Shown: piece by piece, positions 4,758 to 61,539 of the stretch
Layout of the letters: every line of letters begins with the position of its first letter
Numbering within the stretch: position 1 is the first letter of the stretch
DNA from: Antedon mediterranea
Lineage: Eukaryota; Echinodermata; Crinoidea; Comatulida; Antedonidae
Length of the DNA: 64,000 bases
Assembly (NCBI RefSeq): GCF_964355755.1
Contig: NC_092671.1
Coordinates: forward strand, 15,294,501-15,358,500
Direction: 5' to 3'
Translations under genes and position numbers: made by a program
The notes under the pieces: generated by a model
Seen by the model: only the letters and a program-made list of their open reading frames with translations
Told to the model about the DNA's origin: nothing
The model's database searches: none

Positions 4758-7700
4758 ATGGCAATACTTTGGAACACAAGAAATGACAATGAAAAAGCTT
4801 TGCAAATTTTACTGGTAAATCATATTTGTAAAGTAAAATAATTTGGTTCTGAATAGTAGGTAGATATGTGAATGTACTGTACACCTTCTATCAGAAAATA
4901 AAGTGGGTAGGCCAATGTAATGATAAATTGAGGAATTCCTGTAGCCACCTCAGTTATTGTAATATGCACACAATTTTGTTATTAATAAATTGTTATTATT
5001 TTTGTTTTCTTGCAGAATGCACAGGATTTGTATAATAAATATAAAAATGAAGTTGATAAAGCACCTATTTACATACATGAGTGAGTTCACTAAATTATTG
5101 GTATGGTATAATTGTATATCAGTGTTTCCCCAAAAAACATTTTTATTTTATATCACCATGTATCATAGAACAATTGAGATAATTCATGATGGTCCTTCGT
5201 TGTAAGATCATCTACAGTTACTCTTATTTCCTGAAATTCTGTATTTCATCTCAACAAAATATTTGTTTTTTTAAATTTTAGACTGTTGGATAGCGAGGAG
5301 AAAAGCGATCACGAAAGATGGCAGGAGTTTGAAAAAGTATACACTCACACATTGTATTACCTAGCTCAGGTATATGGTGCTCAGAACGAAAATCACAAGG
5401 TAAATTACTGTGAAAAAATACCCTTTTTAAGGGTCAAACTCTTTAAAGGACCATATTTATTAACTGGCTAGATGTATTCATTGACCACATTTATTTTCTT
5501 TTCATAACATTGTTCTTTGTATTACCTTTTAGTCTGCAAGTTACTGCCAAATAACACTACAAAGGCAGCTAAAGTATGATCAGTACGAGCCTCTAGAATG
5601 GGCTTTGAACTGCGCCACCCTTTCACAATATTACATCTGCCAATCAAACTATACGCAAGCTAGGCATTGTCTGGGTAAGTTATATATTTTGTAACCACGG
5701 AAAAATACATATGTTCTTTTGTCAACTTTCCATGGTAGAATTTCCCACTTGGCCACCTTCTCCACCTCGAATCCAAAACGATACAATAGCCCATTATCAG
5801 CTCTTACTAAAAATTTTATAAGCTAGGCATGACACACTTTTACTAAGATCCTTATGAATATGTGTTTATATTTTTCTACATTACATATTTTCTTCTTTTA
5901 GCAAGTGCTAGCTTTATATTTTCTTTAAATAAAGACAAAGGGGAGAAAAAGACTGATGAAGATGAAGAGCAGAGAAGATTGGAAGACATTGCCAATCGTG
6001 AGGCTGACTTGTACAGATGCTGGACCAAATATTGCATCTCATTACTTCAAGATTCCAGGTGTGTCCCACTCTTCATGTTTTTGTACACACTGTTGTTAGA
6101 TGACTTGTTTAATGATTATGGTAGAGTGTGAATGAAATAAACCATTACTTCACACTATTATTTTCCAGAGAAAAACTACTCGTTGAGAATGCTGATGAAA
6201 CCAGAAAAGAAAAACAAGAAAATGATGATGATGTTGATGAAAATAAAAAACTACATGAAAGGTTTGAAAGCTTAGAACTGACGTCTTTAGAAAGTGAAGT
6301 TACTGACCAATATGTTACAGTATTTGAAGAGGTAAAGTATAATGTAAAAATGTCACAGACAAGTCTCGAACCCATGCTTCTCACATGCTAATCCAATACC
6401 TCTTACCATTATGCCATAACATTTATTGACTTGAATTAATGTTTAAATATTTAATTATATTTGTTTTTGTTTGATTTTGTTTTTAGGCTAGATGTGTGTT
6501 TTTAGCAGCACAGAAGTGGATAGGAGAATCAAAAAGATTTTACGAATTTGATGGATTTGTTTCAGAAAATATAGAAATTGTCAAGGTAAGCAAACAATAT
6601 AGTAATAATTATTTTCATAATTAAAATAAATTACTGAAAATAATAGTTTTAGTCAAGCTTGTTTTATAACAGTATGTAAATCATTTTTTGTAAACAACAA
6701 CAACAGTGGCCAATGGGAAGAGATTTGAATAGTTGTTACTAAATGTGATTGGTCAGATTTTGCCTCAATCTAACATTATTATTTCTGTTTAGGATCACAG
6801 TACGTTATTTAAATTATTAGCTTTCTTTGAGCTTGATCCAGAACGAAAGTGTAAGATGTACAAACGCAGAGTAGACATGTTACAGAATGTTATCAAGCAA
6901 TTAAATCCACAACATTTCCTGCTATTGTGTAGGCAACTGATATTTGAAAGTGCTGAAATTTATAGGTAAGCATCTTAAGCTCTGTCTACACTATCAAACT
7001 TCATGTGACAAAAAAATGTTATGTGCCCATATATGGACATGATGATGTCATATCACTACCATATTTGGGCATATCACTACCATATTTGAGTACATCAAAC
7101 TGGTTTGACAGTGTAGAGAGATCTTTAGAAGAGGAGGTTGGATGGTTTGGTTCATTCTAAAGTCGGTTTAACCGAAGAGTTTACATATAGATTGGCTAGA
7201 GGGCAGACTCTTGTCTAGCATTTTTTGTATAATGTGTTAGCGTTTATATGCTCAACACGCTTAGTTGTGTAACGTATGTTACAATGTAAAGAATACCTCT
7301 CACAGTGATACCCTCAACACATGCGTAATAGTGAGCAACTGCATAGGGGCGTATCAACTGATTCATTGCAGCCGCCATCTTTTTGGTTGGCTCCCTCTCC
7401 ATGAAGAATCATTTTTCTAACTGCGATAACATTTAATTGGATTTCAGTCTATAGCCAATCTATATTACTATGGGTTTTTAACACTGATGCTTCTAATTTT
7501 AATTGTTTTAATAGTGAGATGGTGGATTTCAAAATCAGTATAGCAGAAGAGGCACCTCCTGCCAGTCAGCATGCCGTTAAAAAGATCAATATGCTGTATG
7601 TATTATTTTTTTGTATGTTTGAAGATTTGCATAGCAATAAAAAATATAGTAAAGTTGAAAATGTAATTATCATTCTAACATATATATTGTAGAATGATAA

Positions 7701-42472: not shown

Positions 42473-42689
42473 CTTGGAAGTCCTCTCAGTCTCAATACTC
42501 AACCTATGAAAATGAAAGAAAATAATAAAGTAAGCAAGTTTGTAATTCTAGTACTCCATTTCAAATACAGCCCCTGTCCCCAAATTTGCTGGTCTCCCTA
42601 TATAGGTTTATCGCAAATACCTTGATTTCACGAGAAACGTCATTGCACAATGCATGATGATCACTCACACAATTTGCGATAAACCTTAT

Positions 42690-43025
42690 TGTCTACTAAC
42701 TACTACTAGCTAGGTAGGGCCTGCCTACACTACACTATACCTCCTAGGTTAGTACTAGGCCTAGTAGTTCTACAGTACTACTACTAGGCCCTCTAGTACT
42801 AGCTAGAGTGAGAGTAGGCCTTGGCCTAAACTAAAGCCTAAGCCTACTGTACTAACTACTATGCCTCGCCTAGGCTAGGTATGGCCAGCTATATAGCCTA
42901 CTTTACTGTACTTACTAGGCTAGGCCTAGGCCTACTAACTAAAAGGCCTAGCCTAGGCCTAGGCCTAGCTAGCTAGCTAGGCTAGGCCTAGGCCTAACTA
43001 GGCCTAGCCTAGGCCTAGTACTAGT
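42690..43025. repeat. AGGCCTA-rich low-complexity tract upstream of FASTK gene 1
   Basis: A dense run of 'aggccta', 'tagcta' and 'ctactag' words, many self-complementary, including 'cctaggcctaggcctagct'. It falls in the inferred 5' UTR intron or upstream region of the minus-strand FASTK gene. A comparable tract lies at 61540-61945, just 5' of the second FASTK gene. Confidence 0.8.
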
Positions 43026-43181
43026 TTGAAACTATTTCAAATACTAATACTGTCTGTGCTCAGCTAACATATTAGGATGGTGATTATATTATGCTCACCT
43101 GTGTTTATTTCCCTTACAATTATGTACAAATCTATAGTTTTGGGGCTCATTTTGTCACCTTCTTCTCTCTGTTTCGTGCAT

Positions 43182-43392
43182 CCGGTCAGTCTAATTACCG
43201 AAAACAACCGAAAACAACCGAAAACAACCGAAAACAACCATAAACAACTGAAAACAACCATAAACAACCGAAAACAAACCGAAAACAAAATAACAATATC
43301 TAAATACCGAAAACAAATTTGATGCAGCTACTATATTGACCTCGCACGCCAAACAAATTTCTACAGTATATTTTTTAAATGTCGCCCTCTAT
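43182..43392 (-). repeat. (CCGAAAACAA)n element upstream of FASTK gene 1
   Basis: Tandem 'ccgaaaacaa' units (about 43198-43315, some 'cataaacaac' variants) bounded by 'ggtcagtctaattaccg' on one side and 'atgtcgccctctat' (43379-43392) on the other. The same arrangement, inverted, lies at 61018-61195. A segment of about 50 bp between the tandem part and the outer border is present here and absent from the other copy. Confidence 0.85.
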
Positions 43393-43929
43393 TGATAGGT
43401 GTTTCTAAAGCCAACAAGACCGCGCGCGCAAAGCCAAGGAGATAGAGACCATACGAAATGGAAGTGTGCACAAAATTTAACTCAATATCGTACAAACTCA
43501 ATGATAACACCGTGCATTTACTTACAGAATCTACAATATGTTAGATATTTAATATATATGTTACATGAATCTTACGGAGACAAGGAATTGTCTGTAGTCG
43601 TAAGACCCTTTGAAAAATAAAACATTATCATAGAAAAAAACATGAAATAAGGTTTTAAAGATACAAGTTGGAAAGTTAAAGTATTCCTACATATAATATA
43701 AAAGAAACTACATAATAGTAGCCTAACACTAACACGCACCACGCATAATATATAAGCATTTTAATATATAAGCATTTTTAAATACTGTAATTCGATATAA
43801 TCACTTCTAAAATATTTTTTAGTATTTTATAACAATTTTAACAACTAGGGATGGTTCTCGAATACATAGTATAATTTCAGCGATTTCAAATGTACTTACC
43901 GCATGACAATAATACACCACTTCTACGAC

Positions 43930-44215
43930 GTTTATTTGTGTATATTGTGTTTATATGTAAAACAGTTTGTGAAAAACACCTCTATTCGGTGCAAATCGTA
44001 AATTAGCAGGTCTGAAAATAATACTAAAAAGTGGTCAAAAATTGGGACCGTAGTCCGGATTGCCTCCAAATGTAATGGAGTGGTCCTTGGCCACATATTT
44101 CTTGCAATAACTTTTTTGAGTAATTCTGCTAACAAACAGACAGACAATCAAATAAACAGACACACGCGATCGATTAGAGATACCTCCTTGGCGGAGGTAA
44201 ATAATAAATAACTTT
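43930..44215 (+). mobile_element. 3' end of a dispersed retroelement
   Basis: The sequence resembles a 3' end common in marine animal genomes: 'ggagtggtccttggccacat', 'gcaataacttttttgagtaa', 'ctgctaacaaacagacagac', then 'acctccttggcggaggtaa' followed by a short A-rich tail. The terminal 'cctccttggcggagg' forms a perfect hairpin. I read this as a 5'-truncated non-LTR retroelement or SINE tail; family not assigned. Confidence 0.6.
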
Positions 44216-44319
44216 TAAACCAATCAATTAATTGTGATAGAAGTATTGTGGTATTTGACTGACTTTGACAAATCAAGAAAGACGCCAATAAAAAAATCCC
44301 TTTTATGTAATGCTGAAGT

Positions 44320-44460
44320 AATTTTATTTCTATCTACCCAATTAATAAAGAAAAGCCAGTAATGCCAAATTCATTCTGCATACGACTGATCAGGATGTCG
44401 TGATCTATCGTATCAAAAGGATAAAAAAAAAACTGCCAAAACTAGCATAATATATCACCC
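44320..44460 (-). pseudogene. Non-LTR reverse transcriptase fragment, copy 1 (broken)
   Basis: On the minus strand it encodes PFDTIDHDILISRM-NEFGITGFSL, matching the conserved FDTIDHDIL...FGI.G..L segment of Jockey/CR1-type reverse transcriptases, but the frame is broken by indels and an A-run. A second, slightly better copy is at 46440-46560. Confidence 0.65.
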
Positions 44461-44703
44461 TTTATCATGTTTCATCAACATAATATATCACTTTTAACGC
44501 GATAGAGCAGTTTCCGTACTATGAGATTTATTATATTATTTATACCGACTGATATGTTTCATAAAGTAGACAGGAAATGGTTAGATACTGAATAATCTTA
44601 CCTAACGTATGAAGGTTAGAAACTGGGCGAAAATCTGAGTTTAATGTTGATTTGGTCGGGAACCTAAACCAATAATTTCGCAAATCAACATTAGTAGACA
44701 TTC

Positions 44704-45076
44704 GTAGGGAGTGAGTGGCCGAGCGGTTACGACAGTGGAACAGTAATTACGGTCTTACTGAAAAACAACTTTTAGTTGAGTTAAGTATCCGTGATTAAAT
44801 AAAGCTTATTATTATTATTATTATTATAGCCATAACATCGGCAGGGGTTCGAGGCTCACTCACTCCGTGGTTCTGGTGGTTAGAACGAGTCTTCTCGGAT
44901 AAGGACTATAAACCGTAGGTCCAGTGTACACATCTCGCTCGTGTGCACTTTAAAGAACCTAGTACGAGACGAGTAGGGGGTTACCCCGGTGTATTAGTAC
45001 ATTACAGCCACTGATCACCAACTGGGTCCTCTGGGAGACCAGTCTTTGACTGAAGAGGTTACCCAGTATAAATATA
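44704..45076 (+). mobile_element. tRNA-derived SINE, family S1 copy 2, with a nested insertion
   Basis: The head has an acceptor-like 'ggagtga' (44709-44715), an A-box 'tggccgagcggtt', a B-box 'ggttcgaggc' and the matching 'tcactcc' (44874-44880), as in a Ser/Leu-type tRNA. The head is interrupted at about 44742-44828 by an insertion ending in 'aataaagctt' and an (ATT)n run. Downstream follows the S1 body shared with 39683-39880, ending in 'cagtataaatataaatt'. A pol III transcribed origin is inferred. Confidence 0.8.
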
Positions 45077-45467
45077 AATTCAATCGATTCTGTGTTTTAA
45101 AACTTTTATTTTTATTTAAAATGTATTAGGATAAAAATGGGCAAAACGGATATATTGCTACATTTAAAAATGGAGGTCAAATACACAGTACAAATATTTT
45201 GTATATAGCCCGATTTAAACAAATGACAGGAGAAAAACATAATATCTATTTGGGTATTTATTTCTAACTATACGTTGATTTGTTTACAAACTTTTACGAT
45301 TGCATGTTCATTAAATTCGTCATAACCATGCCAGGTTACTTTCCAGAGGTGAATGACGATATAATATTTTTACATTAAATGCATTGGCGATATTGTTGTT
45401 ACCTTTATTTTATGTACATCAAGGATTATGTGTTGCGCTGTATTATACATTTTTTTTTACTTTGATG

Positions 45468-45471
<4 letters not shown>

Positions 45472-45535
<64 letters not shown>
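45472..45535. repeat. (TA)n microsatellite
   Basis: About 32 uninterrupted TA dinucleotides. Confidence 0.99.
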
Positions 45536-45536
<1 letters not shown>

Positions 45537-45611
45537 TGAGGACTAGTTGTGTTCCAACCGTACCACGCCGAGAATGTTAAATTGTCGTTATCCAATCGAG
45601 TTAAAGAACAA

Positions 45612-45857
45612 TACCATGAAATGGTCTAATGGTTAGGGCAACTGCATATCAAGCAGACGGTCCGAGTTCGAGTCTCGGTTGGGTCGACTTTTTCTCATTC
45701 TCACAGATTTCCTCATCTTTATCATTTCAAAAATTAATTAAATAATTTTCAGTGTATCACCGGGCGGTTTGGAATTTATTTCTATGCCTGTTGTGTTTTT
45801 ATATTTATACAATTGTATTGCGAAGCACTGTGTAAATTATATATAAATAAATACTGT
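45612..45857 (+). mobile_element. tRNA-derived SINE, family S2
   Basis: A tRNA-like head contains the A-box 'tggtctaatggttagggca', an anticodon hairpin 'ctgcatatcaagcag', and a perfect T arm 'ccgagttcgagtctcgg'. The acceptor stem does not pair well, so this is not a functional tRNA. It is followed by a roughly 180-bp body including 'caccgggcggtt' and 'tattgcgaagcactgtgtaa', with a terminal 'atataaataaata' tail. Confidence 0.75.
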
Positions 45858-46094
45858 CAAATTACAGTGCTCATCGGAACATGATCTCATAAACGCGTCA
45901 TTGGCGAAAGTTCCGTATTTTTTAGTTGTATGAAAAAATGTCTCTGGCGGGATTCGAACCTGTATATACGTTTCATACAAAAATTGTAATTAATCACGGC
46001 AAACAATTCTACGTAGTTCCTCGGAAATCTGTCTTAAGGCCATAACTGACAGGCCTATGCAACTCATCGAATTAATTTACTAACTTATTTTACA

Positions 46095-46244
46095 GAATTG
46101 ATGCCGTCAAGAACTTGGCTGGGATGATGCAATACCTCGCACCATCCAATCCGAATATTGGTTAGATGAACTTAGAAGGCATGAAATATGTTACAAACTA
46201 CAACACAAAAAGTATGCGAGAGCGAATTACACCCTTTTTTAGAT
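46095..46244 (+). pseudogene. Possible BEL/Pao-type pol fragment
   Basis: The frame starting near 46110 reads LGWDDAIPRTIQSEYWLDEL followed by RRHEICYKLQHKKYARANY and a stop. The LGWDD.IP...W...L pattern resembles the segment after the reverse transcriptase in BEL/Pao retrotransposons. Only about 50 residues are present. The match is to a short motif, so confidence is limited. Confidence 0.35.
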
Positions 46245-46439
46245 GCTATAATTAAGGGCCAGCGTTTCTGTAGTTGATGACACTAACTATCGATGAGGCA
46301 GCACCCATAGATAGTAATGAAAATAAGTCAGTCTGAGATTTTCAACATGGGAGAACCTCTGGAAAACTATAGCTTGGGTACCAGGTCCTGAAATACAAGG
46401 CTCGACTGAGACAAATATTAAAACTACCAAGGAAGAAGA

Positions 46440-46560
46440 ATGGATCCATCAATATTCTATCTACCCAATTTAAAGAAAAGCCAGTAATGCCAAATTCCTT
46501 CTGCATACGACTGATCAGGATGTCGTGATCTATCGTATCAAAAGGATAAATAACCTGCAA
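46440..46560 (-). pseudogene. Non-LTR reverse transcriptase fragment, copy 2
   Basis: Minus-strand translation gives FDTIDHDILISRMQKEFGIT followed by GFSLNWVDRI, typical of the RT domain of Jockey/CR1-like elements, then loses similarity. The DNA matches 44330-44425 closely, so the two are copies of one element in the same orientation about 2.1 kb apart. Confidence 0.75.
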
Positions 46561-47605
46561 AAACTAGCGTTAACAAAATTATTGAACCAGTATGAATATG
46601 ATGTTTCAAAAGAGCACGTCATGAAGACCACAACATTTGAGAAATGTCTATTCCCACAATCAAATGCAATCACACACGTATAAAGCATGCTGTGTATTTC
46701 AGTTTCTTATAGATACGGTATCAGTAACTTGAACTAGTATATTATGGAGATACTCTGTGGAGATCGATAGTTCTATCAACTATGGTTGTTCATTTATTTG
46801 GTGCTCTTTAAGTATAGAATAGATAAAGATAAGCTAAAGCGTATCAAGCTCCAAATGGCGCGTTATACCTTAAAAAAAGCACCTCTGGTTGGTCTCCAAT
46901 TAACTGAGATCCATAACGCTCTTTGTATGAAATACTAAAGATGGAAGTGTAATTGTGAATCCAAATATATTTTCTCCTCTCTCCTTTTAAATGTCTAAAA
47001 TTTTAAGAAACTTAACTCTATAATGATAGATGAATGGAGAATTGAATTACAAAACAAATCGTTTGTATTATTAATAAGCTGTGTTTTCTGTTGATTTTAT
47101 TTAATACAATTTCACTATATTTCTTTATTCATTTTTGTACAGTAATGATCTACCCTATGTCCCTATGTATCGATTAAAATTGGTTGGGGTGTTGCGGAGG
47201 GTAGAGGATATTTTAGGGGTTGTTAGTTGTTTTTTGCCTTTATAATTTTCTGTATGTATATTGTTATATTTTGTATTGTTATTGTGAAGGATGCACGTGA
47301 ATTTATCGGCTACTATTCACTGTTTAAAAACACAGACGATTTATTGTTGACACTTGAGAATTTGTATAAGTTATTCATAAATCTAATTTTTTTACGAAAA
47401 AAGAACCTAATTTCACAACTAATTTTAGTGAATTTTCATATATTTATATTTAATCTCTATCGAACGGTGGGGCAGGGAATAGGCCTAATGGAGGAGGTAG
47501 GAGGGTGGGGATGAGCTATATTATAATGATGTAGGCATATGTATAATACCATTAAAATATACAATAGACACATTATAATGTCAACAACCTTATAATAAAA
47601 CAAAT
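46561..47605. other. Gene-free stretch
   Basis: AT-rich sequence with no recognisable exon. The ORF at 47227-47514 is hydrophobic and low-complexity and resembles no known family. The patch near 47460-47515 is GA-rich. Retroelement debris is possible but not demonstrated. Confidence 0.4.
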
Positions 47606-47607
47606 AC

Positions 47608-47705
47608 TAATGGAGAAAAACTCGAAAACAGAGACCCCCACTAAAACGTCTCATTATATTGGGGGTCTCTTTTTTTGAGATTTCCCGAGACCCCCTAATA
47701 TAATC
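47608..47705. repeat. Outlying copy of the hairpin minisatellite
   Basis: Contains 'aaaactcgaaaacagagacc' and 'ccccactaaaacgtctca', the reverse complement of the unit repeated at 48190-48640, followed by 'tgggggtctctttttttgag'. It is a detached, inverted copy of the same unit about 500 bp before the main array. Confidence 0.8.
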
Positions 47706-48179
47706 CCTGTTTATTGAGAGTGTTGCAAATACCCACCAACGAGCTTGGTCATAAATTATTAAAACCCAACTTTTATCGCAAAAACCGTGAATTTATGTTT
47801 ATTTATTTATCAATTTATTTTTATTTTTTTAATTCATTTCTTTTTAAAGGTTCGCCCAACACAATATATTTGTCTTCATCCTCCAGTCTGCCTCAAAGTC
47901 TGACCTCATATCATTTTGTTATTGCATTGTACGTTATTATCTTTTATGCTTGTTAATAAAGGTTACGAAACTAGTGTCAGTTTTTGAAATAATCTCCCGC
48001 TTTTTAGCTTCTAACATGCATTTATACATCTTACTTAACTTCTAGGACGTCGACCTTGTATTCCAAAATGACAGTCTCTTCACACGCGTTCAAGAATTCA
48101 TCAATCTTCTTATCGTTGCGGCATGTTCTTTGATATCGGCATATCAGTTACCGTTTATTACTGATACGTCATTCTGTGA

Positions 48180-48650
48180 TTTTGAGACGTTTTAGTGGGG
48201 ACCCCCTATATAACGTAATATTGACCTAATATTGAGACGTTTTAGTGGGGGTCTCTGTTTTCGAGTTTTTCTCGAAAACAGAGACCCCTATATAACGTAA
48301 TATTGACTTAATATTGAAACGTTTTAGTGGAGGTCTCTGTTTTCTAGAAAAACTCGAAAACTGAGACCCCCTATATAACGTAATATTGACTTAATATTAA
48401 GAAGTTTTAATGGGGGTATCTGTTTTCGAGTTTTTCTGGAAAACAGAGACCCCCTATGTAACGTAATATTGACTTAATATTGAGACGTTTTAATGGGGGT
48501 ATCTGTTTTCGAGTTTTTCTGGAAAACAGAGACCCCCTATATAACGTATTATTTAGACGTTTTAGTGGGGGTCTCTGTTTTCCAGATTTTCTCGAAAACA
48601 GAGACCCTGGGTCTCGGGTCTCTGGTCTCTGTTTTTGAGACACCCGTTTC
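48180..48650. repeat. Tandem array of perfect hairpins, about 83-bp unit
   Basis: About six units, each reading 'gacgttttagtgggggtctc', then 'tgttttcgagtttttctcga', then 'aaacagagacccc', then 'tatataacgtaatattgact'. Each unit contains a hairpin; in the best one (48248-48288) the arms are 18 bp, perfectly paired around a TTTTT loop. Other units have one or two compensated or uncompensated changes. After 48600 the array degenerates into 'gtctctggtctctg' repeats. It lies about 0.5 kb before the inferred first exon of the PHD-OTU-transposase gene. Confidence 0.9.
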
Positions 48651-49099
48651 GACCTATCTCTTAGTCTCTGGTCTCTGTGTTCGAAGAACCTTAGTAATTT
48701 TATCAAGATCATACAAAGGAGTTCCTTACATGTTTATTCTTGACGGTAACCTATTTTGCAATATGTCAGTGGAATAACTGGCATTTTATCGGAGTCGGAC
48801 GGTTTTGTCAAAATAGTGTTTGATATGGCGATAGCACCGGTTCCGTGTGCGGTTATTATCAAAGCAGCCTGTTGGTTTCCGATTTCTTAAAGATGGTCCC
48901 AAATATGAGAGCAGCTTTGGCAAAATGTGCATTGCGATTGGTCTAGAACTTTGACGGTGTTAGGCTTCAGAAAATAAGCCAATAAAAAAGACCTTCATGC
49001 AACTATGTAAAAAGCGTGGTTCTGCTGAAGTTTCTTTCCACTATTTAAAGCGATAAAAAAACACATCATACCTTTATTCTTGAATTCTCACTGGAGAAA

Positions 49100-49195
49100 A
49101 TCCATCTAAATCTTTATTTTTGTACAGTTCAGTTCAGTTGTACAACAGTTCAGTCTATTTTTACTTAACCGTTCGGTTCTGACGAGCACACAGTG
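49100..49195 (+). promoter_or_regulatory. Inferred 5' UTR exon and promoter region of the PHD-OTU-transposase gene
   Basis: A consensus-like donor (cacagtg|gtaagt, with the intron starting at 49196) pairs sensibly with the acceptor 'ttactttcag' ending at 50084, two bases before which no coding is expected. The exon would be non-coding; its 5' end is unknown. 'ctatttaaag' near 49041 could serve as a TATA-like element. This is inference from splice signals only. Confidence 0.35.
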
Positions 49196-50087
49196 GTAAG
49201 TCATTCATAATTATTTACAGTTCATTTTTTAATAGTTAATCATTATTCAGTGTATAAAGAATGCTTTAATTTAAATATCTACAACGGTATTCAAGTTATT
49301 TATTTGTGCGAATCGCAATTTTTCGCGTATAATTTTTACCCAAAAATCATCAAACTAATCATTTTGACTAATAATGATATAAAGAATTGAAAAACAATAA
49401 AGCCTAAGTTAAGCAATTTGATTTGTGTACTTGTTTTTTTTCTTTTTCTCTTTTGTGGCGCAAACACCACTTTTATTCACATTCATATTATCTCATATTA
49501 CATAAAATCGTATTATTTAACTTGTAAATGTCGTTACAGTTCATAAGTAACATTTTTACATATATGAATTCTGTATTACTCCTTTTTTCATTAATTTTCT
49601 TATATTTTGTTATACACTTGACAGGATCATCATTATCATCTATCCCGTTTTAAAATAGTTCACACATTTTCATTTGTTTGTTTTCATTTTACAACCCGGA
49701 TTATACAATATATTTATATACATGATAAAAATAAACAATAATAGCTCAGTACCACCAGTAACCCGTATCACTGTAATTCTTTTTCTGTTAATCGTATCAA
49801 ATTAGAAATTATATTATCATAATCTTATTTCTTAAAGCTACCCATTTTTCTATACTTTTTTCTTTATTGTTATATGTTTCACATTCAATGTTATATAACA
49901 TATTGCTTTTAAATGAATTCCATAAAGATTTACCGACTGGCTTATTTAGTGCAGATAACATTTTTATTCTATAAATAGTAAATGCTGCAAAAGTGTAAAT
50001 ATAATCTGATAAATATAATGTGTACTTGCTAATGATAGGACCTTACAATTGCTTTCAAACCAATTGTTCTTATTTTACTTTCAGAAT

Positions 50088-53000
50088 ATGTACAGACAAA
50101 AAAGGCAGCACAAAAAAACTAGACCTTGTTTAACTTGTTTTGATTGTGACAAGAAAAAAACGGGGAAATACTTTTGTGGTGTTTGTAAGTTTGCGTGCAA
50201 CAATGACAGTATATTTTGTGATTATTGCTTACGCTGGTTCCACATATTGTGCGAAAACTTAACTAAAGCAAACTTGCATAGCTTAGGTAACTCTCCTTTG
50301 CATTTCACTTGTTCCGAATGCTGTAGCCCTAATGGCAGTTTTGATTTTTTGGCCTCATTAGAGCGTATTGATTCAGCTACCAAAAACAATTACAATATAC
50401 TTGACATAGCGCAAAGTGAACGTTTATTTCTACGTAATCATCGCTTTAGTAAACCCCCGTTTACGATATCTCAACAGTATGTCATCGATGCTGTTTCTAC
50501 AAGTATAATGAACAAATGTGGAGGTGGGCGTTTAATCCCTGTATCTGTCGCTGGTGACGGTAGCTGCTTGTTTAATGCCGTAGCTGTTGCTTTGACTGGC
50601 AATGAAAACATTGCTACTGAACTTCGCGTAAGAACATTTGTTGATATGGTAGAAAAAGAAACATTCTACAAGGAACTGCACAAACATTCAAAAATTGCTT
50701 TAACCAGTCCTGATTACAATCTCGCTTGTTCAGATTGTAGTCGTGAAAGCGGTTATTCTTCAGCTTGGCAGATACAGGCGTTGTCTAGTGTTATAGGGCA
50801 AGAAATTATTTCTGTGTATCCTCCTTATAATGGCGTTACTGACAATGCACATCGCATATTGAATAGAAGTTTTTATCCTTGCGAAGAAACAGCTGACAGA
50901 CATCCGATTTTTATTATGTGGACTAGTACACTATTACCTTCTTCAAAGGGTACGTGGATTCCTAACCACTTTGTCCCGTTATTGGACAGTTCTTTAATAG
51001 ATGAGAGAGTGTGTTTACCCGAAATATTGTCATCTTGCTTGTCATCTACTTCGTATGACGACATTGGTCACAAGAAAGTAATCAAAAGGAAAGGTAAATT
51101 AGGCCTACTCTACTAATTTAGACAAATGGTTTCTTATTTATTTGTACAAATTTAAAAAAAATAAAATTTTAGGATAAGAATACACAAAACTTATCCGTAC
51201 GTAGTGTACGCAATAGATTGGTTCATTGTTATTTTTTATTGTAACGAAGTTATCTCAGAGGTGTGTTTATATTATTGACCGAGATAAATCTAAATTTTTA
51301 TAGTTCAAAAAAAGAAAAGGCGACCGAAAATGAAAGAACGAATCGCAACTATAGTACCCATATCATCTGATTCCGTTGACTCAACACCACAGGTTGATCC
51401 TACAGACTTTCCCTCCACTTCTGTTGATACACAACCTTTCCATAAACGGGATATGATTTCCCTATCTCCACTGTCCACGCCCAACAGCGACAACGTACCC
51501 ATGTCGATGACAACGCCCGACTTGAAAACCACAACAGATACGCAACATGCAAGAGGTAGTGTTTTGTTCTGTTATTTTTTTTTTAACAAAGACATGTTTT
51601 ATTTAATAAGTGTAGGCGTCTATAGAAAACTGAGATATCTGATTGTATCTACATCAAATACAATTGTGTGTTTGTACTTATCGATATGAATCTACATTTT
51701 TATAGTGCGAAAAAAGAAAACAAGGCGACCGAAGAAGAAGCAACGAATCGCAACCACAGTAACCATATCATCTGATTCCGTTGACTCAACACTTGATCCT
51801 ACAGACTTTCCCTCCACTTCTGTTGATAGACAACCTTTCCATAAACGTGATATGATTTCCATATCTCCACTCTCCACATCAAACAGCGACAACGGCAAAA
51901 AGACAGACACAAATGCCACGATGGCTAATTTAGAGGGCTATCCAGCTACCTCTTTTTTTAACCAATCTTCCAATATAGATTCTGATCTGATTTCATTATC
52001 ACACCCATTTTCTGACCCCAACAAGAACAGCAATGATCATGCAGACACCAATGAAAAGTTACTACCTAATCATAATGATGTATTGCATATGCCTATAACA
52101 GGAAAGCCTTCCGATAGTGTGATTTTCCAATCCCCAATTTGTAACCCCCACAGCGAAATCATAAAGGAAAAAAGCACCATAAAAACTATGCAACATGAAG
52201 GTAAGTGTTTTGTTCGTTTTGATCTTCGCATTACAAGATCTGTGTTAGAAAACACAAATTTTAGATATATCTAAGTTTTCTAGATCTAAAAAACTCAGAT
52301 ATTTGAGTTTCCTAGAATTATGAAATTTAAATAACAAGATCCGAGTTTCAATCTTCAAATATAAAAATCAAATCACATAATACAGTAAATCGTGTCATTA
52401 TTAATAAGAGGGTAGTGTTTAAAATACACCTATCATTGTAAGTACTGTTATTTGCAATATAGTACTGCGGTCAACCTGCATAAAATGCGCCTAAAATGTA
52501 TAACATGATATAGAACACTGTTCAATGTCTGATTGTTTATCATGTATGTTATTTACCTTTAAAAGGCAAAAGAAAAGCTCCCAGCAATAGCCTGAAAATA
52601 TAGGGGAATACATTTGTAGTTATGTATTGCATTATGGTTTGACAAATATTTTATATATTTTCAAAAAGGAAAACAGCAGAGGCGACACACTGTATTTTTC
52701 AAGATTGAAGATGTCGGTGATAATTCACCAATTATATTTTCTTCGTCCGAGTCTGAAGTTGATCCTACAGACTTTCCCTCCAATTCTGTTGATAGACAAC
52801 CTTTCCATAAACGGGATATGATTTCCATATCTCCACTGTCCACACCCAACAGCGACAACGTACCCATGTCGATGACAACGCCCGACTTGAAAACCACAAA
52901 AGATACGCAACATGCAGGAGGTAGTGTTTTGTTCTGTTTTTTTTTTTGTAAAAAATAAATGTTTTATTCAATAAGTGTAGGTGTCTATAGGAAACTGAGA

Positions 53001-56000
53001 TATCTGATTGTATCTAGATCAAATAACATTGTGTGTTTGTACTTATCGATATGAATCTACATTTTTATAGTACGAAAAAAGAAAACAAGGCGACCGAAGA
53101 AGAAGCAACGAATCGCAACCATAGCAACCATATCGTCTGATTCCGTTGACTCAACACCACAGGTTGATCCTACAGACTTTCCCTCCACTTCTGTTGATAC
53201 ACAACCTTTCCATAAACGGGATATGTTTTCCATATCTCCAATCTCCACACCAAACAGCGACAACGTACCCTTGTCGATGACAACGCCCGACTTGAAAACT
53301 ACAACAGCTACGCAACATGCAGGAGGTAGTGTTTTGTTCTGTTTTTTTTTTTTTTAACAAAGACATGTTTTATTTAATAAGTGTAGGTGTCTATAGAAAA
53401 CTGAGATATCTGATTGTATCTACATCAAATACAATTGTGTGTTTGTACTTATCGATATGAATCTACATTTTTATAGTGCGGAAAAAGAAAACAAGGCGAC
53501 CGAAGAAGAAGCAACGAATCGCAACCACAGTAACCATATCTTCTGATTCCGTTGACTCAACACTTGATCCTTCAGACTTTCTCTCCACTTCTGTTGATAG
53601 ACAACCTTTCCATAAATGTGATGTGATTTCCATATCTCCACTCTCCACATCAAACAGCGACAACGGCAAAAAGACAGACACTAATGCCACGATGGCTAAT
53701 TTTGAGGGCATTCCAGCTACCTCTTTTTTTAACCAATCTTCCAATATAGATTTTGATCATCAATTTTCTGACCCCAACAACGACAGCAGTGATCATGCAG
53801 ACACCAATGAAAAGTTACTACCTAATCGTAATGATGTATTGCATATGCCTATAACAGGAAAGCCTTCTGATAGTGTGATTTTCCAATCCCCAATTTGTAA
53901 CCCCCACAGCGAAATCATAAAGGAAAGAAGCACGTCGATGACAACGCCCGACTTGAAAACCACAAAAACTATGCAACATGAAGGTAAGTGTTTTGTTCGT
54001 TTTGATCTTCGCATTACAAGAATAGATCTGTGTTAGAAAACACAAATTTTAGATATATCTAAGTTTTCTAGATCTAAAAAACTCAGATATTTGAGTTTCC
54101 TATATTTATGAAATTTAAATAACAAGATCCGAGTTTCAAGCTTCAAATATAAAAATCAAATCACATAATACAGTAAGTCGTGTCATTGTTAATAAGAGGG
54201 TAGTGTTTAAAATACACCTATCATTGTAAGTACTCATTGTTATTTGCCAAAAATAGTACTGCGGTCAACCTGCATAAAATGCGGCTAAAATGTATATCAT
54301 GATATAGAACACGATTCAATGTCTGATTGTTTATCATGTATGTTATTTACCTTTAAAAAGCAAAGGAAAAGCTCCCAGCAATAGCCTGAAAATATAGGGG
54401 AATACATGTATAGTTATGCATTGCATTATGGTTTGACAAATATTTTATATATTTTCAAAAAGGAAAACACCAGAGGCGACACACTGTATTTTTCAAGATT
54501 GAAGATGTCGGCGATAATTCACCATTTATATTTTCTTCGTCCGAGTCTGAAGTTGATCCTACAGACTTTCCCTCCACTTCTGTTGATACACAACCTTTCC
54601 ATAAACGGGATATGATTTCCATATCTCCACTGTTCACACCAAATAGCGACAACGTACCCATGTCGATGACAACGCCCGACTTAAAAACCACGAAAGTAAC
54701 GAATCATGCAGGAGGTAGTGTTTTGATCTGTTGTTTTTTTTTTTAACAAAGTAATGTTTTATTCAATAAGTGTAGGTGTCTATAGGAAACTGAGATATCT
54801 GAATGTATCTAGATCATATAACATTGTGTGTTTTTACTTATCGATATGAATCTACATTTTATAGTGCGGAAAAAGAAAACAAGGCGACCGAAGAAGAAGC
54901 AACGAATCGCAACCATATCATCTGATTCCGTTGACTCAACACCACAGGTTGATCCTACAGACGTTCCCTCCACTTCTGTTGATAGACAACCTTTCCATAA
55001 ACGTGATATGATTTCCATATCTCCACGCTCCACACCAAACAGCGACAACAGCAAAAAGACAGACACAAATGCCACGATGGCTAATTTTAAGGGCATTCCA
55101 GCTACCTCTTTTTTTAGCCAATCTTCCGATATAGATTTTGATTTGATTTCATTATCACATCAATTTTCTGACTCCAACAACGACAGCAGTGATCATACAG
55201 ACACCAATGAAAAGTTACTACCTAATCGTAATGATGTATTGCATACGCCTATAACAGGAAGGCCTTCCGGCGATAGTGTGATTTTCCAATCCCCAATTTG
55301 TAACCCCCACAGCGAAATCATAAAGGAAAAAAGCACGTCGATGACAACGCCCGACTCGAAAACCACAAAAACTATGCAACATGAAAGTAAGTGTTTTGTT
55401 CGTTTTGATCTTCGCATTACAAGATCTGTGTTAGAAAACACAAGTTTTAAATATATCTAAGTTTCCTAGATCTAAAAAACTCAGATATTTGAGTTTCTTA
55501 AATTTATGATATTTCAATAACAAGATTCGAGTTTCATTATTCAAATAGAAAACTCAAATCACCAAATACAGTAAATCGTGTCATTATTAATAAGAGGGTA
55601 GTGTTTAAAATACACCTATCATTGTAAGTACTGTTATTTGCAATAGTACTGCGGTCAACCTGCATAAAATGCGGATAAAATGTATCATGATATAGAACAC
55701 GATTCAATGTCTGATTGTTTATCATGTACTGTATGTTATTTACCGTTAAAAAGCAAAAGAAAAGCTCCCAGCAATAGCATGAAAATATAGGGGAATACAT
55801 TTGTAAGTTATGTATTGCTTTATGGTTTGACAAATATTTATATATTTTTAAAAAGGAAAAAAACAGAGGGGACACACTGCATTTGTCAAGATTGAAGACG
55901 TCGGCGATAATTCACCAATTATATTTTCTTCGTCCGAGTCTGAAGTTGCTCTAAGTAATTCCGAAACACGATACAGTCACATAAACAATTCATTTAGTTC

Positions 56001-58317
56001 TGATCTGGAAAAGCAAGGTTCGTTATTTAATTTACACAACCTAATTGAAACACTATATTAATAAAATCTACATTATCTTTGTGTGACACAATATTCGAAA
56101 ACAAAATTCATTATCATTTCCAATATGCAATTAAAATTAAAATAATTCTGTTTATTTTTGTGGGAAATTGTGACGGCTGATATCTTTTATTTTCCAAATA
56201 AAACTATCTTTAGATGTATCGACTACGTTTTAGCGTGTTCTTAAGGTACAATTACATGTTACTAATATACTAATATTCTATTGTGAAAATATTACATATA
56301 AAATAGAAAATGCATGCATCATACATTTGCTCAAAAGTAACTATTGAAATAAAGTTTATAAACAGTGCCCGCAAAAAAGGAAACATGCCTATTACTGTTA
56401 TTAAATATTTTGAAATTTTCAATATGCTTCGTTTTAGGTGACCGAATGTCGTGCAAAAGGTTCACAAAGCGGTTGTTAAACAAAAAATTTGTTCAGGTGT
56501 CTGAACTATACCAAATCCTCATGAAAACATCAGAAAATGCAACATTCCCAGACATTCCGCAGGGTGTTAAAGAAAATATGTTATTTGTTGTCAACAATGA
56601 AGGCAATGTACAACAACGTTTTGGAGGTGGTCGTAGCTTCTTTCCTGATGATTGTGGTGTATGGGACTCGTCAAGTAGTAGTACTCCGAAGACACAGTTC
56701 ACAAGAGTAGCTGGAAGGCTTATCACCATTGTCTTTAAGTGTGATAGATTTTGCATTAAAAAAAACGGTACTTGGGTCCCGCTCGTACCACAACCGACTA
56801 ATATTATAACTTTGCATAGGTGTTATTGTAAATTAAAACGAGACAAAGGGTACAAAAAACGAGTGTCGTGGATAGAAAACGAAAACGAAAAAATGAACAA
56901 CTTCAATAGGCCTAAAGCAGTAGTTGAATACATTGGCAATTTTCCTTTTACCATTTCGTCACATGGTAATGACAGACATACACACACAGAATACGTACGT
57001 ACTCATCCGAAAGTTCTACGTGATGCTGAATGTAGACTTGTCCATTCCAAACCCAGGGATACTTACGCAGATATGGTTTTTTCTAACCCCGAAAGCGCAC
57101 CCAGAGATATGAAACAACTGAGAAATTTGAAATATAACCGATCAAAAAAACTCACCACAGGTAGTAGGTCTAATGTTGCCGATGATATACAAAATTTAAT
57201 AACCGAATTAACAAAACATGAATTTGTAAAAAAAGTCTTTGCTGTACCTAATCAGCCTCCTTGTGTAATTCTGTACACAAACAATCAAATTAATGACTTA
57301 CGAAGGTTTTGTTGTGGCAATATTTCTCAAAGTATACTAGGGATCGATAGGACTTTTAACTTGGGGGCTTGCTATTTAACGGTTACTGTTTTTAAAAACA
57401 CTCTATTGCTTAAAAAAGAAGCAAATGATCATCCCATTTTTGTCGGCCCGATGCTATTACACTGGGATGGTCGGTACAGCACGTATCTTGATTTCTTTAC
57501 ACATTTGCGTTGTCAGCTTGACAGTGACATAAACAATTCCGAAGTTGGTATGAGTTGTAATATGGTCATAGGTTCCGACGAAGAAAAGGCAATTTTGAAA
57601 GCTTTAAACTTTTCTTTCCCCAATTCGCGACACATATTGTGCACAAGGCATATCAAGCAAAATGCATCTCGTTACTTGCTTGAAAAGCAAGGAGCAAATA
57701 ATAAGTACCGACAAATAATACTAAACAAAATCTTTTCGCCGTCCGGATTACTTGGGAGTACAAACATTTCACAATTTGACAAACGTTCACTACAATTGGA
57801 AATAGATTTCCAAAAACAAGTTCCACTATTTGGAAATTATTTTAGAGATAAACTGTGCCCAACCTTAAAAGAAAAGGTTTTCAGACCCAATATTACCGAC
57901 CGAGTGATTCCGGACCGTTGGACAAACAACAACTGCGAAAGCATAAATCACATTCTAAAACTATCCATTAACTGGAAACCACAAAGGCTTCCAGATTTAG
58001 TACAAATTCTACACAAAATTGCGAAATTACAATATGCAGACGCCCGGCGTGCAATTCACGGACAAGGCAATTTTTACGTTATCCCTAGATTAAAGAAATA
58101 TACAGTGCCAAATTCGGTTTGGATAGGGAAATCTGAAGATGAAAAAAACAAATATGTTTTACGATTTTTGAAAATATCACTGAACAAAACAGTTGCAAAA
58201 ACAACAACATCTAAAGACGGGAAATTAATTATTCCTGCAACACCACAATGTGCTAAAAAACCAGGACAAAAAAAAAGAACCAGAGTTGCAAAAACCACAT
58301 CATTCAGTAAGAAATAA
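50088..58317 (+). CDS. PHD finger - OTU-like protease - MULE transposase gene, 10 coding exons
   Basis: Exons: 50085-51093, 51304-51555, 51706-52200, 52669-52920, 53071-53325, 53477-53983, 54463-54714, 54865-55386, 55856-56017, 56438-58317. All junctions are phase 1, all exons are open, and the total is 5583 nt (1860 aa plus TAA). Exon 1 has a C4HC3 PHD finger (C30, C33, C44, C47, H52, C55, C75, C78) and an OTU-type domain with GDGSC (D157, C160) and NHFVPL (H294), suggesting deubiquitinase-like catalysis. The eight middle exons are tandem-duplicated disordered modules with NLS/AT-hook-like KKKTRRPKKKQR. The last exon is a MULE-type transposase: GIDRTFN (Asp codon 57346-57348), IGSDEEKA (Asp 57577-57579), a HILCTRHIK zinc-like motif, and NNNCESIN (candidate Glu 57937-57939). 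The open frame before 50088 runs back through the acceptor and starts at a TTG, so ATG 50088 is used. Joining all exons in one transcript is inference; separate OTU (stop at 51114) and transposase transcripts remain possible. Confidence 0.72.
51304..56017 (+). repeat. Tandem exon array inside the PHD-OTU-transposase gene
   Basis: Three tandem segments, each with exons plus introns. Segment 1 is 51304-53070, segment 2 is 53071-54864 and segment 3 is 54865-56017. Exon types: A (252-255 nt; 51304, 53071), B (495-522 nt, like A with a longer tail; 51706, 53477, 54865) and C (52669, 54463, 55856). Equivalent exons in segments 1 and 2 are about 1.77-1.79 kb apart. Segment 3 lacks the A exon and is about 1.39 kb from segment 2. 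The core peptide DPTDFPSTSVDRQPFHKRD followed by MISISPLST recurs seven times. Flanking introns are duplicated too. Confidence 0.93.
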
Positions 58318-59460
58318 GAGTTGTATCAAGACTTGAAAGAATTAATGGTGAAGATTTTACTTAGGCTATTTTATATTCACACTTATTTGAAACTCATAAT
58401 CTACAATAATTACACTCTTTTTATAATAATATTGTTTTGTATATGTTTTTAACTTAATATCATTTATATTAAATCAGTATATACTTGTATAATACAAAGA
58501 TTTGAATGTGAAAAAAATAGTACCGTATTTATTCGAATAAATTGAATAAATGCAACCCAACCCCTCTAATTAGGGCGACAATTACACAAACTAATTTTTA
58601 CTCTATTTAACACGTCGTGATGTAATTGTATTGTAGTTTTCATATTGAAGAGGTTCCGAGATATCTATTGAACCATTTTACACCAAAAAAAAAAATAAAA
58701 AGTGCATTAAGCTTATTCAATCGGTTTCCCTAAATTTTGTCGAAGAACCCCATTATCCACGCCATCAATGTGTCAAAAGCTAGTAATTTGATTAAATGTT
58801 CTCAGTTGTGTTTTATGTCGCACATTTAATAATTCCACATCTCGTACGTTTTACTATTACTTTAACAATGAAACGTTTATTATTAAAGGTAGGCCTACCT
58901 TAGTTTCTCGTGTTATTAATTCTGTTTGCACTTATTAAATCTATCTTTTTATATTAATTATTGTTAAAGTTAAGTCGCATTTTAAATATACTTATGTATT
59001 TACTCCAGTATTTGTCACAGTGTTAAATTTTTATTATTTAATAACGCATTTACTAGATAGCATTTACAGATTATTATTGCAATTTTAAATATGTTTATAT
59101 TGGTTTGTACATGGAGGTCCTCCATGGTTTGTATAACACTACTTCCTAAAAACATACGTTCTCTGTCTAACAATTTTTAAAAGCAATGCAATCGTATCCG
59201 ATTTAGATTGACAACTTAGCAGTTGTAAATATTCAGTTTTGCAATTAGCATTAAGTTATAAAATTTCTTTTTTCTTTTAAACTTTTGTTCGATAATTTGT
59301 ATTTTTTCTCCACATAGAATATAAATCACTTTGCCTTCAACAAACATGTGTATTAAGTTTGTTCTTTTTCAAAAAAAAATTCACAAATTGATATTTTATT
59401 GAGTTTCAACCTATACCTAAAAAAACATTAGATTTCAGTATGTTTTGTGTGTTTTTTTTT
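58318..59460. other. Downstream region of the transposase gene, no gene recognised
   Basis: AT-rich sequence that presumably begins with the 3' UTR. A motif 'accgtatttattcgaataaa' at 58522-58541 with 'aataaa' copies resembles ends of a dispersed element also hinted at near 34112-34132. No exon or ORF of note was seen. Confidence 0.45.
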
Positions 59461-59474
59461 ACAAATTAAATTTA

Positions 59475-59945
59475 GGTAGATGTTGATAATACATTTGATA
59501 TCTTGAATCAAGTTTGTATACCTCAAAAACATTATATTTAATGCCTTTCCTCTGGTCAAGAGACGAGATAAGCCCTTGACCAATGTTAGGACCAATCAAG
59601 GTGCTTTAAACAGTCCTGGCTTTGTTTGTATCAAACCTGTTAGTGGCGGTAATTATCGCTGTTGGTTTTTATTTTAATAAAATAAAAAATAAAAAAATAA
59701 AAAAGGAATTATGTTACAGATTTTCAGTTGTGTTCTCATGTATTATTTAAAACATGAAAAATGTTATTTATTTACTACACTATGTTATTTAAATTTAGTT
59801 TGTTGTAGTTAAACAAACATGGCTAGATGTTGATAATACATCTGATATCTTGAATCGAGTTTGTACCTCGAAAACAAAATGAAATTTAGTACTAAAAAGA
59901 TGTTACAGACTTGAGTTGTGTTCTCATGTTCTCTCAATATGATTA
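59475..59945. repeat. Two direct repeats with spacer
   Basis: 'tagatgttgataatacat' followed by 'tgatatcttgaatc' and 'agtttgta' occurs at 59477-59520 and again at 59823-59865. Each is followed by 'gttacagattttcagttgtg' / 'gttacagacttgagttgtgt' and 'tctcatgt' (59713 and 59904). The spacer has 'accaatcaaggtgctttaaa' and a poly-A/AAAT run near 59680-59705. The two copies suggest a local duplication or two ends of one element. Confidence 0.7.
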
Positions 59946-60894
59946 GGCCTAAGGTTAATAAAGATTTACAAGTTAATGAAACATGTTTGTGTTTTCACTT
60001 CCTGTCATCATTTTTGTCAGACTATTATATATATATATATATTTCAACGGAGAAAAACATTCATTAACTCATTAATCAGGGGAAACAACATTACGTTTAA
60101 TTGTTAAACAACTTAATCAAAATTAAGCTGTCGCTGCAAAAGACTTAAAATGAATCCTCTCTAAAACGCACACTGCTGGAATTAAGAATTTAACTTATTT
60201 AATAAATGTTTATATATTTTTCTTTTTTATTTTAACCTTGATTTTAATTTGTATTACAATACTTGTCTAGTCTAGTGGTGAATTGGGCATTACACCAGAA
60301 GGCTAGCTATACTCTTTCTTTCAAATTGATTTTTTAATGAAACAAGTACTTTGAACAAATTCATGCGTGAGCACATAGGCATCATTTTCTCTCTATTTGC
60401 ATTCAAATAAATTACAGTTATTCGTTTAGTGAACAAATAAATTCAAGAATCAACATTAAAATAACGTCAAATGATATGAGTTATGAGGTTCCATTTTTCA
60501 TGAATTTTACGCGCGAGAGTACCCATTTCCGGCCATCTAGCTAGGGGTGTCATGGGAGTAAATTAGCTTCGTCACAGGCCCCACCATGGTTCCAATACTT
60601 CTTATCATTTTATCAGAACTAAACTTACCCACCCACCCACAATGATCATCTCAGGCATTACAAATTTCTTAGTAGGCCTTCTAGCTGTTATATGGCCACC
60701 GAATAACAAAGTTTAATAAATAATAGACTATTTAATTAATTTTCAGTGGATTATTTGTTGGGTACTTGGGGGTATAGGCCTACTATAAAACAAAAAAACA
60801 CCTCTGACGTATTTAGCTTTGCTTTTTGCTTCTCAGTTTGAAATGAACATGTCATAGGGGAAAACTTTACCTTTGCTCCCCCCCCCCCCACATC

Positions 60895-60935
60895 TCCCTA
60901 TTTCAAAATCCTGGATCCGCCCCTGATTTTGGTGC
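60895..60935 (-). mobile_element. Possible right end of a hAT-like element
   Basis: Read in reverse complement, it begins 'caggggcggatccaggattt', which resembles hAT ends with CAG termini; a C-run (about 60879-60889) lies just inside. No partner end was located upstream, so this is a truncated copy or a solo end. Confidence 0.35.
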
Positions 60936-61017
60936 CGAATACTCGTCAGATCCTGACAACCAAACCAAGGCTCACGTGTAATAACGCAGTGCTATCTACT
61001 TCAATATATCATTAATA

Positions 61018-61195
61018 TAGAGGGCGACATAACAAAAAATTTGTTTTCGGTAATTAGATTTGTTTTAGTTTGTTTTCGGTTTGTTTTCGGTTGTTTAGGG
61101 TTGTTTCCGGTTGTTTTCGGTTGTTTTCGGTTATTTTCGGTTGTTTTCGGTTGTTTTCGGTTGTTTTCGGTTGTTTTCGGTAATTAGACTGACCC
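61018..61195 (+). repeat. (TTGTTTTCGG)n element upstream of FASTK gene 2
   Basis: Tandem 'ttgttttcgg' units bounded by 'atagagggcgacat' at the left and 'taattagactgacc' at the right. It is the inverse of 43182-43392, so relative to its neighbouring FASTK gene it has the same orientation and order. A minus-strand ORF across it is a repeat artefact. Confidence 0.87.
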
Positions 61196-61539
61196 CGTGC
61201 ATCGCGTGCGATTAAAATAAAAAGAACTTTACAAATCGAAACGGTATTGCCAGACAACCATCTAAAAAAAGAAATACAATTTGAAAGCAAATATGATTAA
61301 TTTATTTATTACGATTATTATTTAATGATATAGTCATAAGAAATAAACAGATTATACCTAGTATAACCATGTTTATATAGGCTATACTATATTCTTAATT
61401 ATATTGTTGTTAATAAATAGAATTATAAAATATCCTGGCAAAATGTTCATGGAGGCTGACATATTGGATACCCCATGCCGCTTGCCGACCACGTTCCTTT
61501 TGAAAAGGAAGGAAGGCCAGGTAATAGTGTAATGGGCCT

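Follow-up and report, generated by a model that had tools for sequence, protein, structure and literature searches.

A very recently mobile 18-kb MULE-type transposon of Antedon mediterranea and its predicted PHD-OTU-linker-MULE protein

The transposon and its copies

We analyzed a 64,000-nucleotide stretch of the genome of the crinoid Antedon mediterranea (assembly GCF_964355755.1, contig NC_092671.1, positions 15,294,501 to 15,358,500 of the forward strand; hereafter the window). It contains an 18-kb MULE-type DNA transposon with a ten-exon gene, whose predicted product joins a PHD finger, an OTU-type protease domain, a long repeated linker and a MULE transposase (Table 1). The element has the terminal inverted repeats (TIRs), a target-site duplication (TSD) within the 8-11 bp range, and the MULE domain with DDE triad and CxxH motif that mark a MULE. 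The TIRs are about 140 bp long, and the main parts of the left end match the inverted right end at 90-91%. We consider it likely, taking both parts of the statement together, that this is a very recently mobile, apparently autonomous transposon and that its main product is one spliced PHD-OTU-linker-MULE protein.

DNA searches of the genome (354 Mb in 18 contigs) found the whole PHD-OTU exon at 100% identity in five places, and the whole MULE exon at the same five loci. Element borders were set by comparison of the flanks, from which the TSDs were read by eye; the TSD is perfect in five of five copies (CGTGCATC in the window, GCTGGCAC on contig C5, CACTGTTCCT on C2 at 1.37 Mb, TATAAAAT on C11 and GTACATAC on C3, 8 bp long in four copies and 10 bp in one). 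The copies are 17,003-18,041 bp long, any two differ at 8-14 aligned positions (0.046-0.080%), and the reading frame is open in all five. The element has thus moved very recently, because the copies are nearly identical and each has its own perfect TSD and an open frame. The copy at 1.37 Mb on C2 lacks 475 bp of the 5' non-coding part and, among the five copies, a 75-bp stretch (44752-44826) is present in the window copy only.

An open, multi-exon gene is also what a domesticated host gene would look like, and a domesticated protein had been offered in the original prediction, made from the window's sequence. Five complete copies at unrelated places, with TIRs, each in its own TSD and with less than 0.1% divergence, instead identify a mobile element and make domestication extremely improbable; the mark of a domesticated transposase, a single locus without TIR or TSD, is ruled out by the same copies. 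Duplication in the assembly was also rejected, since flanks and TSDs differ between copies.

Deletion derivatives accompany the complete copies. Both ends and a TSD (9 and 8 bp) are retained in two of the five derivatives examined, L022 (on C9, GTAGTAGGC) and L025 (on C1, GTTAAAAT), which are about 2.8 kb long and whose main pieces are 95-97% identical to the window copy; the other three (L021, L023 and L024) have the left end and no exact right end. The first 354 bases of the element have at least the many shorter, more diverged matches, at about 69-77%, that were found among the 40 of 2,220 candidates scored.

Table 1. Features of the transposon and its gene (window positions)
Feature	Position	Strand	Basis or remark
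Left TSD, CGTGCATC	43175-43182	.	Identical to 61196-61203
Complete MULE-type DNA transposon, 18,013 bp	43183-61195	+	Ends common to five copies
Left TIR	43183-43320	.	Begins CGGTCAGTCTAATTACCG; minisatellite of about 10 bp, CCGAAAACAA
5' non-coding part	43321-49050 (right border approximate)	.	In all five copies apart from insertions and deletions
Possible 5' untranslated region exon	49100-50084 (start approximate)	+	GTAAGT donor at 49196, acceptor ending at 50084; consensus by eye
Exons 1-5	50088-51093, 51304-51555, 51706-52200, 52669-52920, 53071-53325	+	Rebuilt gene model
Exons 6-10	53477-53983, 54463-54714, 54865-55386, 55856-56017, 56438-58317	+	Rebuilt gene model
Exon 1: PHD finger (residues 30-78) and OTU protease domain (residues 156-294)	50088-51093	+	Pfam, PDB profile, residues
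Exon 1 read-through tail ending LGLLY-stop	51094-51116	+	Candidate PHD-OTU-only product; peptide kept in family 2
Repeated linker, exons 2-9 and introns	51304-56017	+	Each exon opens with a basic patch, then a SUMO-interacting-motif-like stretch (by eye)
Exon 10: MULE transposase, ends in stop	56438-58317	+	First bases of the D, D and E codons: 57346, 57577 and 57937
Right TIR with minisatellite	61037-61195	.	
Right TSD, CGTGCATC	61196-61203	.	

The gene and its domains

Rebuilt from the sequence, the gene (50088-58317) has ten exons and nine introns, all GT...AG and all phase 1, and a spliced frame of 5,583 nt encoding 1,860 residues with a single terminal stop. The ten AG/GT-bordered, phase-1 exons without internal stop of the original prediction were thereby recovered exactly, and the PHD, OTU and MULE residues that it had called intact are all present, as assigned by eye from motifs. 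Its single gene stands as an open, phase-consistent PHD/OTU/MULE gene of an architecture that recurs in a second family, but the real unit is the whole transposon. Exons 2-9 have no stop in the frame read, against 2-22 per exon in either other frame, and all 11 alignment gaps between duplicated linker exons, but none of the 18 between matching introns, have lengths divisible by three (the compared pairs overlap, and these gaps are therefore not independent). Because the frame read is free of stops and the exon gaps come in threes, unlike those of the introns, exons 2-9 look translated.

Exon 1 exceeds the Pfam cut-offs for PHD (24.1 bits; cut-off 24) and OTU (24.5 bits; cut-off 23.3). The C4HC3 zinc ligands of the PHD finger are present (C30, C33, C44, C47, H52, C55, C75 and C78), as is a candidate OTU triad of D157, C160 and H294, and these three OTU residues are invariant across four aligned sequences, one per family. 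With an Asp-Cys-His set of this kind and its Pfam score the domain matches an OTU deubiquitinase, and cleavage of ubiquitin is predicted. In a profile search of PDB the PHD finger lies closest to those of Pygopus, PPS and MLL1 PHD3, and the OTU domain to OTUD1 (3.3e-5). Some of these PHD fingers bind histone H3 tails. In another animal transposon family, the PHD finger of sea urchin RAG2L binds dimethylated H3K4 (PMC7204232). From the identity of the domains we infer that the protein may read chromatin and remove ubiquitin-like tags. Scans of viral contigs with three queries (MULE exon, PHD-OTU exon, PHD-OTU alignment) confirmed no relative.

Exon 10 scores 27.3 bits for MULE in Pfam, just under the cut-off of 27.6, and 30.3 bits at the same site in the genome search; no match other than MULE was found for it in Pfam at E values up to 1. 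The DDE residues (D1538, D1615 and E1735) and the CxxH motif were located by eye.

The linker

The linker comprises 900 residues rich in Ser, Thr, Asp, Pro and Lys, is predicted from this composition to be disordered, and is built of repeated exon-intron units. The duplication seen originally is real in that the linker is repeated, but it reflects several rounds of repeated exons and not one duplication. Variation among the five copies is distributed unevenly: 17 of the 28 variable sites fall in the linker region; the MULE exon has a single one, and the PHD-OTU exon is invariant. The derived linker state matches another unit of the same array in 15 of 19 cases, the pattern that gene conversion or unequal exchange would give (12 of 15 without the four C11 states at 51855, 51870, 51879 and 52866, which flank a deletion in that copy and may be a single event). 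In the C11 copy 966 bp of linker have been lost, leaving a chimaeric exon and an intact frame of 5,085 nt, and the C3 copy has lost 6 bp in frame. Because each linker exon is phase 1 at both sides, such gains and losses are harmless to the frame.

Within the linker we noted, by eye, stretches such as VTISSDSVDS and SPIIFSSSESE, and in the second family SPIITISSSESDE and SPIIISSESDE (the longer duplicated unit of that family has none), which we take to resemble phosphorylation-dependent SUMO-interacting motifs (SIMs).

The same architecture in a second family

The best copy of a second, related family (C3:23574943-23587012) is 12,070 bp long; it carries a minisatellite, and its ends resemble GGTCCGCCTAAAAACCGG. 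Five exons (991, 96, 114, 270 and 2,102 nt) make up its gene model, all of them phase 1 and with one terminal stop; a further possible phase-1 exon at element positions 6697-6801 is left out. In hmmscan the PHD finger is over the Pfam cut-off. Protein identity between the families is 54% in PHD-OTU and 47-49% in MULE. The linker of family 2 is unlike that of family 1, yet it too has a duplicated unit, one copy of which lies inside the MULE exon; that part of the linker therefore joins the transposase without a splice in family 2. Another family-2 copy, L015, has GGGGAAAC flanking both sides.

Between the families, the proportions of nonsynonymous (pN) and synonymous (pS) differences are 0.323 and 0.783 in PHD-OTU and 0.348 and 0.83 in MULE; pS is saturated at this distance, so that no rate ratio (dN/dS) is given. 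With pN this similar and pS saturated in both halves, the protease half is, as judged from these proportions, under much the same constraint as the transposase. Within family 2, the MULE exons of L011 and L015 differ with pN 0.026 and pS 0.042.

Protein searches found this arrangement at several loci. PHD-OTU or OTU lies upstream of MULE in the same orientation at C3:23.58, C6:26.03, C8:5.46 and C8:12.34 Mb, and at C7:15.73 Mb search matches to PHD-OTU or OTU parts lie in the same arrangement in fragments. At C8:12.34 Mb (L016) both PHD (24.2 bits) and OTU (26.7 bits) exceed their cut-offs, at 40% identity, 5' of a MULE fragment. At C2:27.40 Mb (L020) an OTU domain (29.3 bits) lies 5' of a MULE-related open reading frame (ORF; 31-35% identity) with a four-fold acidic repeat. 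Pfam MULE, at E values up to 0.1, had no match in this ORF, in the L016 fragment or in locus L019. Coding repeats are a recurrent feature of these transposases: in a MULE-like ORF at L019 (2824-4758, minus strand), the N-terminal and catalytic parts are separated by a 16-residue unit (like SYQDVVEHNEIDTLKR) repeated about 14 times. Some matches do not fit the pattern: PHD-OTU at C4:31.87 Mb, and weak OTU matches at four places on C9 (32-40%) and at C3:18.50 Mb (31%), all have no nearby MULE match.

These comparisons bear on whether the PHD-OTU half is a passenger, that is, captured host sequence without a role in transposition. MULEs are prone to acquiring fragments of host genes (PMC6446971), and the genome has many further long ORFs with an OTU domain: a genome-wide search gave 94 matches, many in ORFs of about 3,000 and of about 690-716 residues with equal or nearly equal scores. 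Several other repeated elements of the genome seem to be OTU carriers, and their ORFs are of a length that we take to be Helitron-like. Set against a passenger are the catalytic residues conserved in four families and the zinc ligands conserved in the three that have the PHD finger, at 40-54% identity, the similarity of pN and pS to those of the transposase, and the recurrence of the same-strand position 5' of MULE. We regard a passenger as distinctly improbable.

One spliced product or two

A spliced fusion has to be weighed against two separate products, in which translation of PHD-OTU terminates at the stop after LGLLY (51116) and the linker and transposase form a protein of their own that starts downstream. 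Four nucleotide differences separate the families in this tail, and all are synonymous (GGC/GGT, CTC/TTA, TAC/TAT); 72 of 20,000 random four-change tails kept LGLLY-stop, a pattern that was noticed after the fact. Two products would also be served by an AATAAA at 51160, in intron 1 and 44 bases beyond the stop, by a methionine at full codon 3 of exon 10, and by L016, where a stop and an AT-rich run follow the OTU domain.

On the other side, the two families have a consensus-like donor (AAAG|GTAAAT and GAAG|GTATAA) that matches in position and phase, a phase-1 exon follows exon 1 of family 2 after a 108-base intron, and phase 1 is common to exon 1 and the linker exons in both gene models. In the 950 bases past exon 1 of family 2, AATAAA is absent and the only related signal is ATTAAA, at 21 and 900. 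One gene could, moreover, make both forms: the conserved tail suggests that an unspliced or early-ended transcript may give a PHD-OTU protein of about 342 residues besides the fusion. Two products without a spliced fusion are thus unlikely, and one spliced fusion protein is the likely form, because the second family repeats the architecture, the phase-1 exons and the presence of part of the linker in the transposase exon.

Evidence against an intact, functional fusion

Several results weigh against the reading of the element as the source of one functional PHD-OTU-linker-MULE protein. The fusion is a prediction from genomic sequence. PHD, OTU and MULE all score near their Pfam cut-offs, and in family 2 OTU (21.7 bits; cut-off 23.3) and MULE (25.8 bits; cut-off 27.6) fall below them, although the family-2 MULE site reaches 28.3 bits in the genome search. 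A search of PDB with exon 1 alone returned PHD fingers, but for OTU only VCPIP1, at an E value of 0.44. The prediction of OTU and RNase H-like folds, proposed originally as a check, gave unusable single-sequence AlphaFold models of exon 1 and exon 10 (predicted local distance difference test scores of 30.7 and 30.4), and for this reason the folds rest on sequence profiles.

Among the relatives, the full family-2 copy has no matching TSD, and the family is more damaged than family 1: the other copies examined have lost PHD-OTU, MULE or the frame (at C4:19.29 Mb, L013, PHD-OTU is kept and MULE lost by internal deletion; at C5:26.13 Mb, L015, MULE is kept and PHD-OTU lost). L016 has an in-frame stop after OTU, and no phase-1 donor was seen there by eye. 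The linker exons give no consistent signal of purifying selection (pN 0.040-0.066, pS 0.028-0.158). The SIM-like motifs, whose rule was drawn up after they had been noticed, are individually weak: shuffling gives a motif in 110-286 of 2,000 trials for four of five family-1 units (the fifth unit has none), and in 283 of 2,000 for family-2 exon 2. The case for these motifs, in their recurrence and in their likeness between otherwise differing linkers, is suggestive only.

Other features of the element and window

A tRNA-like stretch inside the element (45620-45680, plus strand; Rfam 35.8 bits) is perhaps an old short interspersed nuclear element insertion; ARAGORN found no tRNA over 43000-61500. 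At 48203-48625, upstream of the possible 5' untranslated region exon, lie four to five tandem units of about 83 bp made of inverted halves. Outside the element, a FASTK-like ORF (40379-42547, minus strand; FAST_1, 43 bits) has its first Met codon 703 bp from the left TSD, and this upstream position of the window copy is in line with promoter targeting, though no proof of it. At 1215-1964 (plus strand) and in overlapping minus-strand frames, a minisatellite (repeat like NCATSLRNCANHSG) has long open frames on both strands.

Relation to known transposons

The pieces of this combination were known before. The original prediction presented OTU with a MULE transposase as a different solution from the capture of other proteases, which overstated its novelty: MuDR-6_HM of Hydra (Cnidaria, group 14) is listed as having one ORF with an 'Ovarian Tumour Gene' (Dupeyron et al. 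2019, PMC6446971, Table 1). The two elements share MULE transposase and OTU, here on different exons of one predicted spliced gene; the same table gives MuDR-6_HM no zinc finger, a TIR of 'None' and a TSD of 'Not indicated', and our comparison is by description only. Rehavkus, an outgroup to MULEs, likewise has a PHD finger; a minisatellite precedes its 3' TIR, and in the present element one lies within both inverted repeats. No OTU is listed for Rehavkus, and its TSD is 9 bp (PMC6446971), as against 8 bp in four copies and 10 bp in one here (one derivative has 9).

Ginger1 elements have transposase proteins with OTU or Ulp1, and one listed family has Ulp1 with PHD (Bao et al. 2010, PMC2836005). 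Their transposase is Gypsy-integrase-like, their TSD is CCGG or CCGT and the extra domains are C-terminal (PMC2836005), in contrast to the MULE transposase, 8-10 bp TSD and N-terminal domains found here; identity with Ginger1 was rejected, since exon 10 matched only MULE in Pfam and the TSDs are not CCGG or CCGT. Mutator elements of hydra, lancelet and plants likewise carry a cysteine protease of a ubiquitin-like system, theirs being Ulp1 and ours OTU (PMC2836005). Because the legend to Figure 1e in that paper refers to Ulp1 and PHD domains for Mutator as well as Ginger1 transposases, a combination of PHD finger, ubiquitin-like protease and Mutator transposase had probably been conceived before, with Ulp1 as the protease.

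MULEs of arthropods were surveyed in 2026, with lengths reported up to 9,972 bp, and no word that starts with OTU or PHD occurs in the main text of that survey (PMC13359780). Within the open-licence papers searched, a scope that excludes Repbase Reports and supplements, we did not find an 18-kb MULE with PHD, OTU and an expandable linker, nor the PHD-OTU-linker-MULE whole in print. A more distant parallel is offered by the RAG1L-RAG2L transposons, which have two genes, a transposase of another superfamily and no known OTU. The parallel is that a DDE transposase operates together with a PHD finger, that of sea urchin RAG2L binding dimethylated H3K4 (PMC7204232).

Proposed mode of action and implications

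As follows from its family, the transposase, an RNase H-like DDE enzyme, would bind its own element and the deletion derivatives at their minisatellite-bearing ends, and cut and paste both. In the working model that we find likeliest, the PHD finger would anchor the complex to histone H3 in open chromatin methylated at K4, and the OTU domain could strip ubiquitin from the transposase or from target proteins, such that the complex is spared degradation or repair is eased; a part in repair has been suggested for ubiquitin-like proteases in transposons (PMC2836005). The linker would serve as a bridge, its SIM-like motifs could add weak multivalent binding to SUMO-marked partners, and its phase-1 units would be gained and lost by recombination without breaking the frame, while reading into intron 1 would make the PHD-OTU-only form. 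Taken alone, the steps assigned to PHD, OTU and the SIM-like linker are tentative, and we would sooner expect some of them to fail than all to hold. The fullest version, in which one chain combines a PHD reader for H3, OTU, a length-variable SUMO-interacting array and the MULE core, is accompanied by the shorter PHD-OTU product and thereby brings its own ubiquitin and SUMO control and a chromatin address, is speculative and rather doubtful; if true, each recombination could alter the number of SUMO-binding sites and so tune activity between sibling copies.

Several unrelated transposons carry ubiquitin-like proteases. A young element with five near-identical open-frame copies, a linker-length variant and non-autonomous derivatives provides a natural test set for asking whether movement or target choice depends on the catalytic residue of the OTU domain, on the PHD finger or on the linker.

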